The translations under genes and the position numbers were made by a program. A stretch of DNA of 29,770 nucleotides from a virus, in the IMG/VR virus record IMGVR_UViG_3300020312_000307, positions 1 through 29,770 of that record; one strand, 5' to 3'. The notes under the pieces were generated by a model. The model searched no databases, had not been told where the DNA came from, and saw only the letters and a program-made list of their open reading frames with translations. Positions within the stretch are counted from its first letter, which is position 1. Each line of letters begins with the position of its first letter. Below are positions 8,836-29,158 of this stretch, in pieces.

Positions 8836-9267
8836 TTAATTTAATACATTATGGTTTACTAAAATTAAATCAAGTTGAACAATATAAATATCATTATTTT
8901 CATTCTCCTCATCTTGTATATCATACTCAATGTTATCTATATCTAAATAAGCCCAAGTTGTGTTATTGGTCTGCTTATCTAACAACTTTTTTCTTAATCT
9001 ATCTACTTTACCTTTGATATTTTCGTTAATACCATCGCCCATTATCTTGCGATTAAAATAATATCTAATCATTACATTGTATTCACGTTGCTCAAAAGCA
9101 TTTGTAGTCATTAAATTTGTACTGCTTTCTAAATTGATTCTAATAAATTCATTGCCCTTCATCTTATAATCTTTAGATATAAAAACATTATTAAAATCGT
9201 TATTAATCCAATCTCTTAAACCTTTTTCAATTAAAGTATATCCTATTTTATCATAAGTAACTGCCAT
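8836..9267 (-). CDS. Tail terminator / tail completion-like protein, 143 aa
   Basis: This 143-residue protein begins MAVTYDKIGYTLIEKGLRDWINNDF and contains an alternating beta pattern (FIRINLES, YNVMIRYYF, IYIVQLDLILVNHNV). Size, alpha-beta-beta layout and location between a connector-like gene and the tail tube gene match the tail terminator (gpU-like) or tail completion proteins that cap the tube and join it to the head. I see no strong motif, so the assignment is by context. The ATG at 9267 overlaps the stop of the upstream connector gene, giving translational coupling. Confidence 0.5.
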   Translation of the reverse strand: MAVTYDKIGYTLIEKGLRDWINNDFNNVFISKDYKMKGNEFIRINLESSTNLMTTNAFEQREYNVMIRYYFNRKIMGDGINENIKGKVDRLRKKLLDKQTNNTTWAYLDIDNIEYDIQDEENENNDIYIVQLDLILVNHNVLN

Positions 9268-14796: not shown

Positions 14797-16725
14797 TTAC
14801 GGTGTATCTGTTTCTATATCTGATGTTGCATCAAAATTAATCATATCTCCTGAATTACGGTTAGGAGCGTGATCTACTATATCATATTGACTCATATTTG
14901 TCATTATTCCTGCATTACCATTTACAGGTTTGCAACTAATATTTGCTAATGTTATATCTCCATCTGCATCATTAAATTGAATGGAAAATTGATGATTATT
15001 ATTTAAATCTGTAACATTAGTATAATATACATTTTCTCCACTTGTGATATTATAAGTATCCAAACTACCATCAGGATAAAGTTTTAATTGTTTAACATTT
15101 GGTGCAACTGTCCAAGATGCAGTAAATGATATTTTATGCACACCAAGTGGTAATTGTCCTGCTAAAATTCCTGTTGAAGTGGCTGTATTATAAAAACGAG
15201 TAGCAGCAGCTGAACTTGAATCGTCTGATTCCATAGTAACTGTATTAGTGCTTGAATCAATCGTAGTAGTAATATCAGCAGCATTAGTCCAACTACTAAT
15301 ACTTGTTACTAATTCAGTGCCTAAAGTAGCATTTGTTTGGTCTGCTATTAAACCATTTCCTGCAATATTGCCATCATCTAAAGTACCATTACCCATTCTC
15401 CAATAGCCTTGTAAATCACCTGATTTATCTGTACCACTTCCTGCTGTATAACTTGCAGCTAATGTTAAATCATTTGGTTCACCTGAATTATATATTGATG
15501 CTACTGTGTTGGCATTTAAAGCTGCATCCCATATTGCAACATCACATAGTTTTCCTTCAAAATAATTAGCTGTAGCAGCAGAAGAACTTCCTATTCGAGC
15601 ATTTGTAGTAACATCAATAGTTTGAGATACTGTTCCTGTCGTTTCCAACACTCCATTTAAATAAAGGCAATATGTTGTACCATCATAAGTAACTACAACG
15701 TGATGCCAAGAACCTGATAAACCTGTGCTTGTAGAACTTATAGTAGTATTATTAAGTTTGTATTTAATTTGTTCAGAACTATTTAATCTTAAATGAATAC
15801 CATCACTCGTTCCATCTACATTTTCAAATATTAATTTTTCATTTCCATCATCTATAACTTTAAACCAAGCAGATATAGTATGCTGTGTATAATTAAAAGG
15901 ATCTGATAATTGTATATAATCATTACTACCATCAAAATCTATACTCTTACCACTAAAAAATGTTTTTCTCATATCAGGAATAACAAGATTATTAGCATTA
16001 GCATCTGCTACTCTTGTAGATGCTTCATCACCCATTCTCCACCAACCTTTAATATTAGCACTTGATGAATAATCACCTGAATCAGTAGATAAATCTAAAT
16101 TTGCAGTTCCACCATTGTATATTTGTGTTATTTCATCAGCAGTCAATTCTTTATTCCATATAGCAACTTCATCTATGTTTCCTTCTGAATATATTGTGCC
16201 TGAGGCATTATATTTAGTATGCCCTATATATAAATCAGCAGAAGTTTGATGCATTGCATTATAAGTACCTAAAGTAGCAACAGAATCATCAGCAAGTACC
16301 CCATTTACATATAAATGCATACCACTTGTACTACTACTACCATCATAAGTAGCTGCAACGTGAATCCAATTTCCTTCATAAATTGTTAAAGCTGCTGAAA
16401 ATCTTCGTATATAAACATCAGTATCATTATCCATCAACTTTAAATATAATAAATCACTACCATTACAACCAAATCCCCACTCTGTATTTGGGTCAAAACC
16501 TGTTTTAGATAAGATTGGGAAACCACTTGCATCAGTCATTTTTACCCAAGCAGAAACAGAAAAGGCTGAATCAGAACTGCCATCTCCAAAACTTAAATTA
16601 TCTGAATCAGATATAGATATATATTCATCAGCACCATCAAATATAATTGATTTAGTATTGGTTACTTGTGCAAGAGCATCAACTAATCCCTGTGCTTGTG
16701 TTGTGCCTAATCCTAATCCTAACAT
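14797..16725 (-). CDS. LamG/concanavalin-like multidomain adhesin, 642 aa
   Basis: At least two laminin-G-like jelly-roll domains are visible. The first, about residues 25-225, has FSVSAWVKMTDASGFPIL, WIHVAATYDGSSS and IDEVAIWNKELTADEITQIYNGG. The second, about 255-440, repeats the same blocks (TISAWFKVIDDG, WHHVVVTYDGT, CDVAIWDAALN). About 465-620 forms a third beta-rich, carbohydrate-binding-module-like domain (LPLGVHKISFTASWTV). WWRMGDEAS and YWRMGNGTL close the first and second domains. Such proteins bind glycans, so this is a likely receptor-binding or capsid-surface adhesin. It starts MLGLGLGTTQAQGLVDAL without signal peptide. The ATG (16725) immediately follows the stop of the 113-residue gene. 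Confidence 0.8.
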   Translation of the reverse strand: MLGLGLGTTQAQGLVDALAQVTNTKSIIFDGADEYISISDSDNLSFGDGSSDSAFSVSAWVKMTDASGFPILSKTGFDPNTEWGFGCNGSDLLYLKLMDNDTDVYIRRFSAALTIYEGNWIHVAATYDGSSSTSGMHLYVNGVLADDSVATLGTYNAMHQTSADLYIGHTKYNASGTIYSEGNIDEVAIWNKELTADEITQIYNGGTANLDLSTDSGDYSSSANIKGWWRMGDEASTRVADANANNLVIPDMRKTFFSGKSIDFDGSNDYIQLSDPFNYTQHTISAWFKVIDDGNEKLIFENVDGTSDGIHLRLNSSEQIKYKLNNTTISSTSTGLSGSWHHVVVTYDGTTYCLYLNGVLETTGTVSQTIDVTTNARIGSSSAATANYFEGKLCDVAIWDAALNANTVASIYNSGEPNDLTLAASYTAGSGTDKSGDLQGYWRMGNGTLDDGNIAGNGLIADQTNATLGTELVTSISSWTNAADITTTIDSSTNTVTMESDDSSSAAATRFYNTATSTGILAGQLPLGVHKISFTASWTVAPNVKQLKLYPDGSLDTYNITSGENVYYTNVTDLNNNHQFSIQFNDADGDITLANISCKPVNGNAGIMTNMSQYDIVDHAPNRNSGDMINFDATSDIETDTP

Positions 16726-22866: not shown

Positions 22867-23158
22867 ATCCTTTGGGTAATTCTGTTGTTGTTACTTCTTG
22901 TTTGTCACTCATTCCTAAATACTGTTTACTTAACCAAATCTGCATAGTTACATTGCCATTTTCAGCAGTACGCCACATCAACTGTCTTAATCGTATCTTC
23001 CCTTTATCACGCCCTTTTGTCAAAGATTCGGAATAACTCTTTCTAATTAAACTTTCATCACAACCAAAAAATGATGCTATTTCAGTATTGGTGCAACCAT
23101 ATGATGATAGCTTTTCTACCTGTTCAGGTTCTATATTATACTTCTTCGGTCTTGCCAT
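22844..23158 (-). CDS. terS: Small terminase subunit-like protein, 104 aa
   Basis: A helix-turn-helix occupies about residues 10-36 (EQVEKLSSYGCTNTEIASFFG, then CDESLIRKSY), and the C-terminal part has NVTMQIWLSKQYLGMSDK (about 69-86), the signature found in many phage small terminases that follows the DNA-binding domain. The protein recognises the packaging start on phage DNA and loads TerL. The gene lies just upstream of TerL with one small frame between. Its ATG at 23158 overlaps the methyltransferase 3' end by 23 bases. The identification is from motif and synteny. Confidence 0.82.
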   Translation of the reverse strand: MARPKKYNIEPEQVEKLSSYGCTNTEIASFFGCDESLIRKSYSESLTKGRDKGKIRLRQLMWRTAENGNVTMQIWLSKQYLGMSDKQEVTTTELPKGFDTHHIE

Positions 23159-24227
23159 ATAATTCTGCTTTCTTTCCTGTAAATTCTTCCCATCTCTTTA
23201 CTATTACATCACAATAATGAGGATCAAGTTCCATACCATAACACTTTCTATTAGTTTTTTCACAAGCTATTAATGTTGAGCCACTACCAAGAAATAAATC
23301 TAATATATTGCTTGGGTTACTATTTTTTATTGCCCTTAAACATAAATCAACAGGCTTTTGTGTTGGGTGAATATATTTAGTGTCTTTTTTAACCTCCCAA
23401 ACATCAGAATCTGAACCACTAAAATCTCCTTTGTAAAAACACACTTCATATTGTCCTCTATAGCCTTTGCCTAAACCAAAATTATTTTTATACCATACAA
23501 TTATATCTCTTGGCTCAAAATTTATATCAACTAAATTATAAATTCTTCCCCATACATATATTTCTTTTACATCAGGAATAGAAGAATAAAATGGAGTTAC
23601 ATCTAAATTATCTCCCATCAACCTCATCTTTTTTCTTCCACCATAACCACCTAAACCATATGGAGGGTCGGTATATACCATATCTGCCTTATTACCATCC
23701 ATAAGTAAATCTACATCTTCCTTTTTTGTAGCATCACCACATAAAAGTCTATGCTCACCCAATATCCACAAATCACCTAATTTAGTAACTGCTTCTTCTA
23801 CTTCAGGGATTTCATCATCATCAATATTGCCCTCTTTATCTTCATCAGGTGCAAAGCCTACCAATTCATCATCACTAAATCCCCAATCCTTTAATTCATC
23901 CATATCAAATAAATCAGCCAATATATCATAATCCCATTCACCTGTATTTTTATTTAATCTAACATTCAATTCTCGTTCTTCATCTAATGTTAAATCAACC
24001 TCTACACAAGGCACTTCTTCAATGCCAAGCGATTCAGCTACTCTTGTTCGCTGATGACCACCAATTATAATATTTTTTCTGTCTTTATTTTTATTTATAA
24101 TAACAGGATCAACCAAGCCAAAACGTTGTATAGAATCTTTTAATTGTTTAAATTGTTCTTTTTTTAACTGTCTTGGATTGTATTCTGCACTAATTAATTC
24201 TTTTATATTTTTAGTTATTACCTGCAT
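23136..24227 (-). CDS. ParB/sulfiredoxin-like domain fused to DPPY DNA methyltransferase, 363 aa
   Basis: Residues 1-95 match the ParB N-terminal/sulfiredoxin-like nuclease-type domain: a YNPRQLK start, IQRFGLVDPVIIN, then IIIGGHQRTRVAESLG with GGHQR at 56-60. After a linker (to about 150) comes an amino-methyltransferase domain with DPPY at 187-190 (catalytic motif), HPTQKP at 286-291 and the SAM-binding FLGSGST at 311-317. DPPY before FxGxG is the order of beta-class enzymes, which methylate adenine N6 or cytosine N4. Phage versions protect DNA from restriction or mark it for packaging. It overlaps the RusA-like gene and the TerS gene. No paired endonuclease is seen beside it, so it is probably an orphan. 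Confidence 0.88.
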   Translation of the reverse strand: MQVITKNIKELISAEYNPRQLKKEQFKQLKDSIQRFGLVDPVIINKNKDRKNIIIGGHQRTRVAESLGIEEVPCVEVDLTLDEERELNVRLNKNTGEWDYDILADLFDMDELKDWGFSDDELVGFAPDEDKEGNIDDDEIPEVEEAVTKLGDLWILGEHRLLCGDATKKEDVDLLMDGNKADMVYTDPPYGLGGYGGRKKMRLMGDNLDVTPFYSSIPDVKEIYVWGRIYNLVDINFEPRDIIVWYKNNFGLGKGYRGQYEVCFYKGDFSGSDSDVWEVKKDTKYIHPTQKPVDLCLRAIKNSNPSNILDLFLGSGSTLIACEKTNRKCYGMELDPHYCDVIVKRWEEFTGKKAELYGKTEEV

Positions 24228-24914: not shown

Positions 24915-25132
24915 TATCTATCTCTTGCTTTCTTTTCTATACAGTTATCCTGTATGTTTTTTTCTTTTAAAATATATTCACCTGTTTTAGTAACATAAAA
25001 ATCTTCTTCTTCCCAACTACAAACAAATCCTTCACTATCATAATCTTTTTCAATTCTTGGGTACATACAATTTAAGGTTTCACCTGTGCCAATAGTTACA
25101 GTAAAAGCTATAATCCAAGTACTAAAAAACAT
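24857..25132 (-). CDS. Small protein with hydrophobic N-terminus, 91 aa
   Basis: The first 18 residues (FFSTWIIAFTVTIGTGE) are hydrophobic and could be a signal peptide or membrane anchor; the rest is charged, with LNCMYPRIEKDY, EGFVCSWEEED and DNCIEKKARDRYWKK. Three cysteines (C22, C38, C63) could pair in an oxidising compartment if it is exported. The ATG at 25132 overlaps the stop of the upstream membrane protein (TAATG). The last codons carry an A_AAA_AAC heptamer that could shift into the following frame. No family was recognised; with its upstream neighbour it may form a membrane-linked pair. Confidence 0.6.
   Translation of the reverse strand: MFFSTWIIAFTVTIGTGETLNCMYPRIEKDYDSEGFVCSWEEEDFYVTKTGEYILKEKNIQDNCIEKKARDRYWKKRNPKKVVHTTEEKNN
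24863..24869 (-). promoter_or_regulatory. Candidate -1 frameshift heptamer A_AAA_AAC
   Basis: Reading the gene that starts at 25132, the codons GAA AAA AAC place A_AAA_AAC in the X_XXY_YYZ phase, one sense codon before the TAG stop at 24859-24857. The -1 frame is open for about 33 codons beyond it. No strong downstream stem or pseudoknot is evident by eye, which weakens the case. Confidence 0.35.
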
Positions 25133-25581
25133 TACTTACCACCTTTTTTTAATGGCTTATCATCACCCCAAACAGGATTATCAGGCGTTTTAGAATCTAC
25201 TTTTACACCATTACCACCTATTTTAATTTGATTCCTATCCATTGTAACTTCCATATCTTTTTGATTAGCCTGATCTTGTAAGTGATGTACTAAATCTTTT
25301 GCTACTGTCGCTAATGGATCTTCAGGTGCAGGTGGTGCAACCATACTTGTAAGTACATTAATTAAACCTAATGTAATAGTTGAAATTAAACCTGTAACTA
25401 CTGCTAATTGCGATTCTCCAAGATAATAAGCTGCTGCAATAAGCATACAAGCCATAATTAAAATTGTAGGTACACTAAATACGCCTACCCAAAATCTTAA
25501 CTTATCTATCATTAAACGCCTATCAGACGCTCTTTTTCTTTTTATTTCAGCTATTTCTTCTTTTGTTAGTTTTTGTGTCAT
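25132..25581 (-). CDS. Two-helix membrane protein, 149 aa
   Basis: A basic N-terminus (EIAEIKRKRASDRRLMIDKL) is followed by two predicted transmembrane helices, about residues 32-53 (VGVFSVPTILIMACMLIAAA) and 60-80 (VVTGLISTITLGLINVL), then a soluble acidic-to-basic tail that contains QANQKDMEVTMDRNQIK and ends DDKPLKKGGK. The layout could fit a holin-like or other phage membrane protein, but the long cytoplasmic tail is unusual for a holin. It lies between the replication initiator and the 91-residue protein with a hydrophobic N-terminus. The function is not known; a second candidate holin lies beside the endolysin. Confidence 0.65.
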   Translation of the reverse strand: MTQKLTKEEIAEIKRKRASDRRLMIDKLRFWVGVFSVPTILIMACMLIAAAYYLGESQLAVVTGLISTITLGLINVLTSMVAPPAPEDPLATVAKDLVHHLQDQANQKDMEVTMDRNQIKIGGNGVKVDSKTPDNPVWGDDKPLKKGGK

Positions 25582-25582
25582 A

Positions 25583-26365
25583 CTATAATTTAGCTTTTAT
25601 TTGAGGTTTAGGCAATATTTTTGTCTTGCAACATATGGAATCTTCGTTTGTAGTAGCGTAAAAATCGCTTTTATTGCACTTTTCACAGTATCCTATATAA
25701 GATACCCCTAAAACATCTTTTTTAAATTCTACGCCTATATTTACATCCATTTCATCTTCCCATCTACGATTGTTTAAATATGTAAATGGGTATGGCTGAA
25801 ACTGTTTATCAGGTATCAATTTTAAAAAAGCAGGTAATGTATCCATTATTTTAGTTCTATCTATATCTTTTAAATTGTTCCACTTTTTTTCAACTTTAGA
25901 CTTATCTCCAACTTTTTTATTATATAAATCCCAAAAAACACTAAACTCTATATTTACTTTTTTTTTATTTACTTTCTTTTCTTTTATAGCATTGGGTTCG
26001 CTATGCGTTCGCAATGCGTTCGCATTACGTTTCCATCTTTTCCGAGCAGACTCCCTTGCTTTTTCGCTGCGTTCATCTTTCTGTTTCATACGATTTAATA
26101 ACGATTCTGAATAAAAAATATCATCTTCAATTATAAACAAATCATAGTCCTCTACTAAACTTTTAATGCAATCGCTATGCGTTCGCAATGCAAATGCAAT
26201 GCAATCGTAATCACATTCTAAAGTATAATCAGGTTCATTTCTTAATCGTTCAACTATTGCCCAATATAAACCGTATCCTTCCCATCCTAATTTTGACAAT
26301 AATTTGATTATTTTTGGATCGTGTTGTGCATTAGCATCGTGGCTAAAATAATATGCTTCTTTCAT
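25583..26365 (-). CDS. Replication initiator-like protein (DUF4373 type), 260 aa
   Basis: The N-terminal 100 residues match the Lin1244/Lin1753-like DUF4373 domain (AYYFSHDANAQHDPKIIKLL, then SKLGWEGYGLYWAIVERL), a winged-helix DnaD-like replication module. About 137-205 resembles the helical C-terminal region of phage replication proteins (FWDLYNKKVGDKSKVEKKW, then FTYLNNRRWEDE). The last 40 residues carry a CEKC and a CC pair, possibly a zinc knuckle. The peptide ALRTHS occurs twice (residues 59-64 and 117-122) because a 20-bp DNA repeat is embedded in the gene. The protein may bind these repeats to open DNA, as lambda O does. ATG at 26365; SD is AAAGGAGA. Confidence 0.75.
   Translation of the reverse strand: MKEAYYFSHDANAQHDPKIIKLLSKLGWEGYGLYWAIVERLRNEPDYTLECDYDCIAFALRTHSDCIKSLVEDYDLFIIEDDIFYSESLLNRMKQKDERSEKARESARKRWKRNANALRTHSEPNAIKEKKVNKKKVNIEFSVFWDLYNKKVGDKSKVEKKWNNLKDIDRTKIMDTLPAFLKLIPDKQFQPYPFTYLNNRRWEDEMDVNIGVEFKKDVLGVSYIGYCEKCNKSDFYATTNEDSICCKTKILPKPQIKAKL
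25940..25988. other. Candidate DNA-unwinding AT tract beside iterons
   Basis: The stretch from 25940 to 25988 is almost pure T/A pairs with runs of eight or more T, and lies next to the first iteron copy on the side away from the second. Phage origins of the lambda type place such an AT-rich unwinding region directly next to initiator-binding iterons. In this AT-rich genome such a tract is not rare, so support is modest. Confidence 0.35.
25998..26026. repeat. Iteron-like repeat block 1 inside the initiator gene
   Basis: The 20 bases TCGCTATGCGTTCGCAATGC at 25998-26017 recur exactly at 26172-26191. Directly after, AATGCGTTCGCATT (26013-26026) is a 14-bp dyad (AATGCG/CGCATT around TT), so the block holds two adjacent copies of the unit ATGCGTTCGC. 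The block is markedly GC-richer than its surroundings. In the protein it encodes ALRTHS near residue 117. Repeated, dyad-containing elements inside an initiator gene are typical of phage origins. Confidence 0.6.
26162..26208. repeat. Iteron-like repeat block 2 inside the initiator gene
   Basis: The exact 20-bp copy TCGCTATGCGTTCGCAATGC is at 26172-26191 and is flanked by degenerate units (AATGCAATCG before it; AATGCAAATGCAATGCAATCG-like units after). It encodes ALRTHS at residues 59-64 and is 174 bp from block 1. The run of AATGC units suggests several weaker binding sites on both sides. Confidence 0.55.
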
Positions 26366-26388: not shown

Positions 26389-27414
26389 TTAATTTATTAA
26401 TTTAATAATTTTATCTCCAACTGCTTTAACTACAGGTACACTAACAGCATTACCTAATTGTTTATATCTTTGTGTATCTGATTGCCCTTCAGTCCAATCA
26501 TCAGGAAATCCTTGTAATCTTTCACATTCTATTGGTGTTAATTTTCTTACAGTAGATTTGTTATACAATCTTAAACAATTATGATGTGGTTCAGTTAATG
26601 TCGGACATATATCTTGTGCCTTTTTATTATATAAATCTAATGCCTTTGTATCATCATAATTTAAATTAAATTTTTCTAAAGTTTTATTTAAAGATTTTTG
26701 TGAAAAATTATATTTTTTATTAATTAACAATGGAACATTTTGTCCACCTGTACCCATAGCTTGTGATAAACAAGGACTATTACCATCTTTTCTTATTCTT
26801 AACCCTTCATCATTTCTGTAATCTGCAATTTTAAAATTTACCTTTTTTATTAAAGTTTTTTTATTGCCTTTTGTGATAGGAAATATTTTTGATCTACCTC
26901 GTTCTCCAAGATGTCCGACAATATATATTCGCTCTCTATTTTGGGGTAACCACCATTTAGTATTAAGTAATTGACATTCAACGGTATAATCAAGGTCGGA
27001 CAAAACTCCATAAATTGTAGCAAATGTTTGTCCATTGTCGTGGTTAAGTAAACCTTTAACATTTTCGAGTACAAAGTATGGGATTGGTTTCCCAATATCT
27101 TTGAAATATCGCAAAATCCGTGCAATTTCAAAAAATAATGTTCCTCTTGTGTCATTGAATCCTTGCCTTTTTCCTGCAATCGAAAACGCTTGGCACGGAA
27201 ATCCTCCACAAAGGATTGTAATGTCACTTGGTAAGTTTTTTGGTTGAACAGTTGTAATGTTTCCGAGTTCTGTTGCATTTGGAAATCTCCTTTTATATTG
27301 TTTAGAAGCATATTTATCTATTTCACTAAAACCAACCCAATCAAACTTAAATCCTGATTGTTCAAGTCCTAAATGAAATCCACCTATGCCACTAAATAAA
27401 TCTAATAACTTCAT
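26389..27414 (-). CDS. C5-cytosine DNA methyltransferase (Dcm type), 341 aa
   Basis: All key motifs are present: LDLFSGIGGFHLG (SAM site, residues 4-16), GGFPCQAFS with catalytic Cys at 74, ENVKGLL at 117-123, QNRERIYIVG at 158-167, and the C-terminal TPIECERLQGFPDDW and QLGNAVSVPV motifs. The variable target-recognition region is about residues 180-290 (DYRNDEGLRIRKDGNSPCLSQ). The enzyme adds a methyl group to C5 of cytosine in a short motif that cannot be predicted. It has the normal size for the family. No cognate endonuclease is next to it. It is preceded by a 37-residue membrane peptide gene (ATGA overlap). Probably a defence-evasion enzyme against host restriction. Confidence 0.9.
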   Translation of the reverse strand: MKLLDLFSGIGGFHLGLEQSGFKFDWVGFSEIDKYASKQYKRRFPNATELGNITTVQPKNLPSDITILCGGFPCQAFSIAGKRQGFNDTRGTLFFEIARILRYFKDIGKPIPYFVLENVKGLLNHDNGQTFATIYGVLSDLDYTVECQLLNTKWWLPQNRERIYIVGHLGERGRSKIFPITKGNKKTLIKKVNFKIADYRNDEGLRIRKDGNSPCLSQAMGTGGQNVPLLINKKYNFSQKSLNKTLEKFNLNYDDTKALDLYNKKAQDICPTLTEPHHNCLRLYNKSTVRKLTPIECERLQGFPDDWTEGQSDTQRYKQLGNAVSVPVVKAVGDKIIKLIN

Positions 27415-27524
27415 TTACTACCTCTTAATATGTAAATTGCAACGCCTATACTAATTATTAATTTAAAAACAAGATCAGATATAGTTGTAATTAAATATAG
27501 TATGTCATATTGCAAATCACTCAT
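27411..27524 (-). CDS. Small membrane peptide between HTH and methyltransferase, 37 aa
   Basis: ATG at 27524 overlaps the HTH gene stop (27521, ATGA) and the frame stops at TGA 27411-27413 overlapping the methyltransferase ATG. The product, MSDLQYDILYLITTISDLVF followed by KLIISIGVAIYILRGSK, is hydrophobic with two short membrane stretches and a basic end. Both junctions are coupled. The function is unknown. It could be a small membrane-acting peptide or only a translational bridge. Confidence 0.55.
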   Translation of the reverse strand: MSDLQYDILYLITTISDLVFKLIISIGVAIYILRGSK

Positions 27525-27718
27525 TCTTCCATCTCTTTTATTGCTTTTTCTATAGGAACATCAAATACTTGTAAACACATTGCAAAATGCTTACCACTAA
27601 TGTTTCTTTTACGATTAAGCCAAGAGTAAACCAATGTATGGCTTACTCCTAACTTTCTCGATAACCAAGCAGGTGTTCGTTCGTTCATTTCTAATAAATA
27701 TTCAAGATACTTAATCAA
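27521..27718 (-). CDS. Cro/CI-type helix-turn-helix DNA-binding protein, 65 aa
   Basis: The whole 65-residue protein is one HTH domain: RTPAWLSRKLGVSHTLVYSWLNRKRNISG (about residues 13-41) has the recognition-helix pattern of the XRE/Cro/CI family, and the following helix carries FAMCLQVFDVP. It is a probable transcription regulator of the phage, possibly of the early operons. The ATG at 27718 overlaps the stop of the preceding SSB-like gene (ATGA). Its DNA target is not known; the palindrome at 1037-1057 is a candidate site for testing. No toxin gene is next to it, so an antitoxin role is less likely. Confidence 0.8.
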   Translation of the reverse strand: MIKYLEYLLEMNERTPAWLSRKLGVSHTLVYSWLNRKRNISGKHFAMCLQVFDVPIEKAIKEMEE

Positions 27719-27972
27719 AATGGTAAACCATCACTCTCTTGTGCTGCAACAGGTCTATTATTTGGATCACCTGAAACATCTTGCTCTTTAGATTGAAAAG
27801 ATAATGATAAAAATGTTTTACCACTATTATTTCCTGTTCTTTTCCAAGCAGATACCCAATATTCTTTCCCATTGATCTCACAACTTCCTGTCATATTTGG
27901 CTTTTTATCTTCAGCGTTTTCTTTTTTATCATTTACAAATAAAACACCTTTTAGGTTATTATCATATTGCAT
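27715..27972 (-). CDS. SSB/DUF736-like small OB-type protein, 85 aa
   Basis: The sequence MQYDNNLKGVLFVNDKKEN, then MTGSCEINGKEYWVSAWKRTG and KTFLSLSFQS, has the beta-strand order and GKEYWVSAW block of DUF736-like proteins, and it ends in ESDGLPF, similar to the acidic DDLPF-type tips of single-strand-binding proteins. A role in binding single-stranded DNA during replication is therefore plausible. The C-terminal third is low complexity (VSGDPNNRPVAAQE). It is preceded by an AAAGGAGAAG site and followed by the HTH gene. The assignment is moderate and by pattern only. Confidence 0.5.
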   Translation of the reverse strand: MQYDNNLKGVLFVNDKKENAEDKKPNMTGSCEINGKEYWVSAWKRTGNNSGKTFLSLSFQSKEQDVSGDPNNRPVAAQESDGLPF

Positions 27973-28933: not shown

Positions 28934-29158
28934 TTAAGATTCTTCTTGATTAAAATACGCCTTTTTGATGTTATATAAATAGGTAGGATTGCTATCTTCT
29001 TGTATTTGTTCTATAACTTCTTCAGCGTTTTTTAATCTCTTTTCAATGTTTTTATATATCTTTTCAAGGTTTTCAATTTTTTGCCTAAAACTTAATAATG
29101 AAGCACTCATATTATCTTTCCAATCTTGATATTCTGTAATTCTTTCATTTAATGGCAT
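28934..29158 (-). CDS. Coiled-coil hypothetical protein, 74 aa
   Basis: This 74-residue protein has a long heptad-like helix (SLLSFRQKIENLEKIYKNIE, then KRLKNAEEVIEQIQEDSN) over about residues 19-56, flanked by short polar ends. No catalytic motif, membrane segment or zinc site is seen. The ATG at 29158 overlaps the upstream 47-residue gene (TAATG), and its stop (28934-28936) precedes the nuclease-like gene whose frame reads back into its 3' end. Possibly a dimeric adaptor, but this is inference. Confidence 0.7.
   Translation of the reverse strand: MPLNERITEYQDWKDNMSASLLSFRQKIENLEKIYKNIEKRLKNAEEVIEQIQEDSNPTYLYNIKKAYFNQEES

Follow-up and report, generated by a model that had tools for sequence, protein, structure and literature searches.

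A Lin1244_N replication initiator gene that probably carries an iteron-type origin within its own coding sequence

The DNA considered here raises the question of whether a single phage gene can encode a replication initiator and, in the same letters, the origin at which that initiator would act. The window, by which we mean the whole 29,770-nucleotide stretch of IMG/VR virus record IMGVR_UViG_3300020312_000307 (29.8 kb, ~30% GC, its main genes being carried by the minus strand), had been singled out by an initial annotation for origin-like iterons lying within an initiator gene. Helical periodicity, constraint in two gene sets and a protein-blind scan make this the best reading: judging from the sequence, we put the probability that the initiator gene has its own iteron-type replication origin, embedded in its coding sequence, at roughly 0.85.

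The gene itself (Table 1) was rightly ascribed to the DUF4373 type. Its product is recognized by Lin1244_N (PF14297) with 42 bits against a curated cut-off of 25, and by PHROG 2562, 'replication initiation protein', with an E-value of 2.2e-20; the Lin1244/Lin1753-like (DUF4373) phage replication initiation proteins of this PHROG are its direct sequence family. In the AlphaFold2 model, a disordered linker (aa 113-140) lies between a winged helix-turn-helix (HTH) N-domain and a helical C-terminal domain, and the PHROGs that the latter resembles comprise replication-initiation or primosomal proteins. The best structural matches of the N-domain model are the N-terminal domains of RepA_N initiators (4pql, 4pt7, 4pta and 5kbj; Z 5.9-6.4, rmsd 2.3-2.7 over 76-77 residues), but generic winged helices score as well, and every Z is below 8. 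By sequence, no RepA_N domain is found in the N-domain, where Lin1244_N is the sole Pfam entry; likewise, no PDB structure was matched significantly by the protein model in Foldseek (best E 0.33), and nothing relevant emerged when PDB sequences were searched by profile with the protein. The initial annotation had called the family unrelated to that of lambda O, and no sequence relation to lambda O is apparent; with respect to RepA_N, however, the fold is perhaps not unrelated (Z 6.4, tied with generic winged helices).

Table 1. Features of the initiator gene and its embedded repeats; positions are those of the window.
Feature	Position	Strand	Remarks
Replication initiator gene	25583..26365	-	260 aa, N-domain Lin1244_N/DUF4373; PF14297 E 1.6e-10
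Winged helix-turn-helix N-domain, aa 6-113	26027..26350	-	AlphaFold2 model, pLDDT mostly >90
Helical C-terminal domain, aa 141-200	25766..25945	-	AlphaFold2 model; similar to PHROG 270/9327/9474
20-mer copy one (ALRTHS)	26172..26191	-	exact; coding strand GCATTGCGAACGCATAGCGA
20-mer copy two (ALRTHS)	25998..26017	-	exact; coding strand GCATTGCGAACGCATAGCGA
Iteron cluster 1	26159..26206	-	in the coding DNA of the first helix and turn of the HTH
Iteron cluster 2	25989..26026	-	in linker-coding DNA, aa 113-125
14-bp dyad AATGCG-AA-CGCATT (AATGCGAACGCATT)	26013..26026	-	belongs to cluster 2
Pentamer array ATAAA AGAAA AGAAA GTAAA ... GTAAA	25947..25987	-	directly after cluster 2, linker-coding

The 20-mer on which attention had been fixed does occur twice, exactly, and both copies do code for ALRTHS; the epithet GC-rich suits it merely against the ~30% GC of the genome, the element being 55% GC. 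As a repeat it stands in its two exact copies, but the true unit is one of 11 bp, half-palindromic (GCGAACGC plus 3 bp), and the 20-mer is a part of two arrays of such units. Cluster 1 presents the half-palindromes GCATTTGC (26190-26197), GCGAACGC (26179-26186) and GCGATTGC (26168-26175), and cluster 2 presents GCGAACGC (26016-26023), GCGAACGC (26005-26012) and GCGAACCC (25994-26001), 11 bp apart in either case; the start-to-start distances of the units are 11, 11, 163 and 11. The degenerate AATGC units noted earlier are present at 26165-26205, as is the neighboring 14-bp dyad, with a 12-bp core, ATGCGAACGCAT, at 26014-26025. With up to two mismatches, GCATWGCGAACGC is found five times in the 29.8 kb against 0.13 expected, each time within the initiator gene. 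Chance does not explain the 20-mer and the 11-bp units: among 2000 Markov genes none attained a longest repeat of 20 nt, and among 2000 genes resampled by codon with the protein held constant, 15 did; the codon string of the 20-mer has a probability of 6.5e-6 given ALRTHS; the lag-11 and lag-22 periodicity of the gene was attained in 0/1000 protein-preserving codon resamples; and codons 113-124 (cluster 2) fall within the most atypical 0.04% of the phage's 12-codon windows.

Directly after cluster 2, the GC content drops from ~0.5 to 0.15-0.2. The AT tract reported at this place is present (~25947-25987), but is not plain AT; rather, it is an ordered array of pentamers, AT-rich and with a purine-rich coding strand, whose unit is NNAAA and ideally GTAAA, and which we regard from its sequence as a candidate unwinding or single-strand element. 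In the window gene alone, the lag-5 periodicity is weak (p 0.04, codon resamples); the close relative L001 has 15 nt, exactly three pentamers, more in its array, and the median array length in related genes is 31 nt. The unit is mostly GTAAA where the frame permits, with GGAAA or AGAAA where the T would create an in-frame TAA stop; thus, the peptide KVKESKVKESK looks like a DNA repeat read in its open frame. When viral contigs were scanned for AAAGK x4 in a protein-blind manner, the matches listed included 77 long ORFs, 73 of them with Lin1244_N. In the 90 nt upstream of these arrays, again among the matches listed, lag 11 is seen in 21/75 genes, lag 21 in 30/75 and lag 22 in 21/75, with all remaining lags from 6 to 23 in 0-1 genes of 75. 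To see whether pentamers go with the C-domain, phages combining the C-domain of the window's initiator with an unrelated N-domain were sought. Few were returned (12 records), and no clear GTAAA array was seen in Edwardsiella, Psychrobacter and Pontimonas, the three read outside the Vibrio DUF4373 group; this small three-phage sample fits with the array belonging with the N-domain. On contig L190, pentamer arrays lie at 9167-9190 and 1194-1217; a full initiator gene holds one, and an open stretch of 24 codons the other, which points perhaps to a second or decayed origin. We also considered a DnaT-like filament reading the pentamers and rejected it, as each protomer of DnaT engages 2 bases rather than 5 (PMC4132743).

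Constraint on these elements was measured as synonymous diversity relative to the gene mean, in a 42-gene clade (group A) and a separate set of 29 Bacillota genes. In the former it is 0.34 at cluster 1 (p 3e-4), 0.23 at cluster 2 (0/20000) and 0.35 at the pentamers (p 1.5e-4), as against 1.19 outside the elements. The corresponding values for the Bacillota set, which is nearly saturated synonymously outside the three elements, are ~0.54, ~0.43 and 0.07-0.38, most of the rest being at 1.0-1.3. When the window gene is set against L002, 45/170 same-residue codons outside the elements are synonymously different, as opposed to 0/23 in cluster 2 and the array, where four residues have changed. By this measure, the repeats are under nucleic-acid-level selection in two independent gene sets.

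To place these elements in a wider frame, we scanned viral and genome contigs for related genes and drew on 127 non-redundant ones (by record title, from Bacteroidota, Bacillota and others), all 127 of which contain Lin1244_N, and on 33 representatives of less than 60% identity for lag tests against synonymous shuffles. Autocorrelation of the linker in the 127 genes reveals only two lag families, 5/10/15 and 11/22/33. Significance is reached by 18 of the 33 representatives at lag 5, 16 at lag 10, and 14 each at lags 11 and 22, with weaker signals at lag 15 (nine) and lag 33 (seven) and 0-3 at other lags; in the average over the 33, an AT-rich trough lies right behind the iterons. Across relatives, the clusters keep to the same two positions in the gene, in words that vary from one lineage to another: the window group has GCGAACGC; L006/L007 have ATGCGTTCGCAT/ATGCGAACGCAT, the cluster 1 unit being inverted there relative to cluster 2; L014 has ATGCAGATGCAATGCA; and L015 and L018 have 11-bp repeats built from yet other words. 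Linker words recur at nt 140-200 (cluster 1) of the same gene in 77/127, and a gene's own linker words match its cluster 1 better than do those of other genes (0/5000 permutations; p 0.13 in a control window), as expected if one changing protein reads both. The initial annotation had proposed the absence of the repeats from close relatives as grounds for refutation, and its reading withstands this check only in part: the linker array persists in altered form at 67-82% identity, but the HTH-segment copy decays, being partial or lost at 57-82% identity. Sequence analysis establishes the elements, their periodicity, their nucleic-acid-level conservation and their linkage to the initiator family; the layout of putative landing repeats followed by pentamers recurs, as far as sequence tells, in related phage genes from distant bacterial kinds, and Lactobacillus phage LBR48, whose host is harmless, shares it.

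The same relatives differ in exchangeable C-terminal modules: DUF7833 (PF25200) in 26/127 initiators (A3 members), DnaB_2, the DnaD-like C-terminal domain that is absent from the window protein, in 12/127, and Phg_2220_C in 3. The module switches just past the array between L008 and L017, and between L010 and L012. DUF7833 is a candidate helicase-recruiting domain. L078-L082 and L093 are short Lin1244_N ORFs of ~127 aa, which stop after the N-domain at the expected start of the linker. In L115, the linker runs directly into the HNH-like sequence SERLAIARTKGTHSKEEWEELKDFFGHCVICG, and one of the 127 relatives, apparently this initiator, has a Pfam HNH endonuclease domain; a homing-type element may have inserted here, at the putative origin.

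Genomic neighborhoods link this family, in relatives, to helicase and loader genes. The next downstream gene, taken in 92 relatives, is IstB/DnaC-like (loader-like) in 21 and DnaB_C in 17, and an initiator followed by a loader or helicase is found in phages EF62phi, Porphyromonas 005a, Vibrio 1.091.O and Vibrio 2.095.A. For the window, the next gene (25132-25581) has no family match in Pfam or PHROG, and scans of the neighborhood of its initiator found no helicase or loader gene. A change in GC skew, which the initial annotation had suggested looking for, is not seen at 26 kb; the check is uninformative since all main genes are on one strand. Upstream of the initiator, a small HTH regulator (27521-27718) overlaps a gene whose product resembles single-strand DNA binding proteins of phages (27715-27972), together making up a compact replication block. 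Directly upstream lies a C5-cytosine DNA methyltransferase (26389-27414), and four genes downstream, a ParB-N/N6-N4 methyltransferase fusion (23136-24227).

From these features, we infer binding, opening and initiation at the elements, and advance the following plausible mechanism. The N-terminal winged helix would bind the 11-bp-phased, half-palindromic iterons of clusters 2 and 1; this binding might then strain and open the AT-rich pentamer array directly after cluster 2; and the exposed single strand, along with the C-terminal domain, might recruit the replicative helicase or its loader. With iterons and reading domain in one gene, the two would co-evolve and move together as one cassette, and the C-terminal module would be swappable just downstream of the array.

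Other explanations for such repeats have to be weighed against an in-gene origin. Many iteron initiators autoregulate, and a winged-helix protein alongside half-palindromic sites might suggest an operator through which transcription of the initiator gene is repressed or timed, either by the initiator itself or by the small HTH protein (27521-27718), with replication starting elsewhere. Yet, the strong iteron copies are all deep inside the coding sequence, with none upstream of the gene, and promoter signals near the gene are not above chance; moreover, the iterons are followed by a constrained pentamer array without operator-like dyads, and in relatives often by helicase or loader genes, all of which render the operator highly unlikely. 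To an element acting in the mRNA, by translation control or structure, we accord a slightly smaller probability still. Such an element would suppress synonymous change too, so that synonymous constraint cannot separate DNA from RNA, and ribosome binding or R-loop formation by the purine-rich array is conceivable. However, while folding is significant (z < -2 versus synonymous shuffles) in 6-7/33 lineages, the mean z is just -0.7 to -1.0, and the single-strand DNA fold of the 271-nt region of the window is no better than that of shuffles (z -0.77). Further, spacings of 11, 21 and 22 bp amount to one or two turns of B-DNA, and the inversion of cluster 1 in L006/L007 keeps a half-palindromic duplex site but alters the RNA.

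The concentration of most repeats in a disordered linker, and a difference of exactly three pentamers (15 nt) between the window and L001, are what one might see if ALRTHS and KESKV were kept for protein function or if the repeats arose by neutral slippage in a tolerant linker. This is exceedingly improbable in the face of a synonymous diversity that is minimal exactly at the repeats in two gene sets, a linker that shows no synonymous change versus L002 though amino acids do change, a pentamer that is mostly GTAAA unless its T gives an in-frame TAA (then GGAAA/AGAAA), and a cluster 1 that resides in DNA coding for the folded HTH; the tandem 11-bp and 5-bp units cross all three frames, thus marking them as DNA repeats and not peptide ones. 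Equally improbable is the view of the repeats as mainly a homology patch for recombination: although the C-terminal module does switch just after the array (L008 versus L017; L010 versus L012), a hotspot leaves cluster 1, the helical phasing and the lineage-matched words of both clusters unexplained, and it may itself be a by-product of an origin sited at a domain boundary.

In-gene origins as such are already known from lambda O and pSK41. In lambda, iterons lie inside O with a plain AT-rich stretch beside them, and P follows O. With ori within lambda O (PMC6022878), the window is alike in having iterons in the initiator gene and an AT-rich neighbor, and its relatives in having a loader or helicase gene next, like P; it differs in having 11-bp units in two separated clusters and ordered pentamers in place of a plain AT-rich stretch. 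The lambda-like layout originally proposed therefore holds for the in-gene iterons and the adjacent AT-rich element, but the nearer counterpart lies elsewhere: judged by analogy, the nearest described analogue, closer than lambda O, is the RepA_N plasmid pSK41. There, Rep has a winged-helix N-domain, a linker and a C-domain, and the Rep boxes are central in rep, in its linker-coding part (PMC5703833); the structural matches to RepA_N N-domains, tied as they are with generic winged helices, may be a further likeness. In contrast to pSK41, the window lacks a RepA_N Pfam match, Lin1244_N being a phage family that includes phages of Bacteroidota; the Lin1244_N units are of 11, 21 or 22 bp; and there are extra iterons in HTH-coding DNA and an ordered pentamer array. 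A third parallel is offered by the DnaA-trios/DnaD Recognition Element (DRE) of Bacillus subtilis oriC, where a short-period array likewise stands beside initiator boxes with one strand repeating 5'-TnnT-3': the DRE contains TACT three times, and DnaD needs TnnT at oriC (PMC10201434). The TTTAC strand of the GTAAA array yields TACT every 5 nt, a match that is a lead only, as any TTTNN repeat gives TnnT; unlike the trios, the pentamers have a period of 5, not 3, and occur in phages of Bacteroidota too.

What look new are the Lin1244_N family as a setting, the placing of iterons within HTH-coding DNA and the pentamer array shared across the family. The open-access literature yielded no origin description for the Lin1244_N family, DUF4373 being named only in iron-metabolism titles, and nothing naming Lin1244 together with replication; nor did it yield an account of iterons inside HTH-coding DNA or of pentamer repeats at origins, in a limited search where absence is not proof. 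With rather less than even confidence, we extend the reading to all Lin1244_N initiators: each would have an in-gene origin made up of iterons in the HTH DNA, iterons in the linker and a GTAAA/TTTAC array for sequence-specific single-strand loading, the last being a phage counterpart, with a 5-nt step, of the DnaA-trio/DnaD-recognition strand. If this is true for Lin1244_N as a whole, the KVKESKVKESK peptide would be the only open-frame reading of a DNA element, an odd conserved peptide thus being explained as a DNA signal; sequence alone would suffice to locate, to within ~200 bp, the origin of a large and uncharacterised group of phages and prophages, those of Bacteroidota and Bacillota among them; and each initiator would be tied to its cognate sites. 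The family would then be a test case for how one coding sequence can bear two messages, as also for single-strand loading by short-period arrays in systems other than DnaA.

Two other repeats in the window deserve mention. The large protein encoded at 14797-16725 is internally duplicated: a 32-nt repeat occurs at 15678 and 16338 with 88% identity, and the duplicated parts look like two domains of the concanavalin/LamG type. The best tandem repeat of the window (score 68) is a 21-bp one at 29029-29077, in a small coiled-coil-like ORF.
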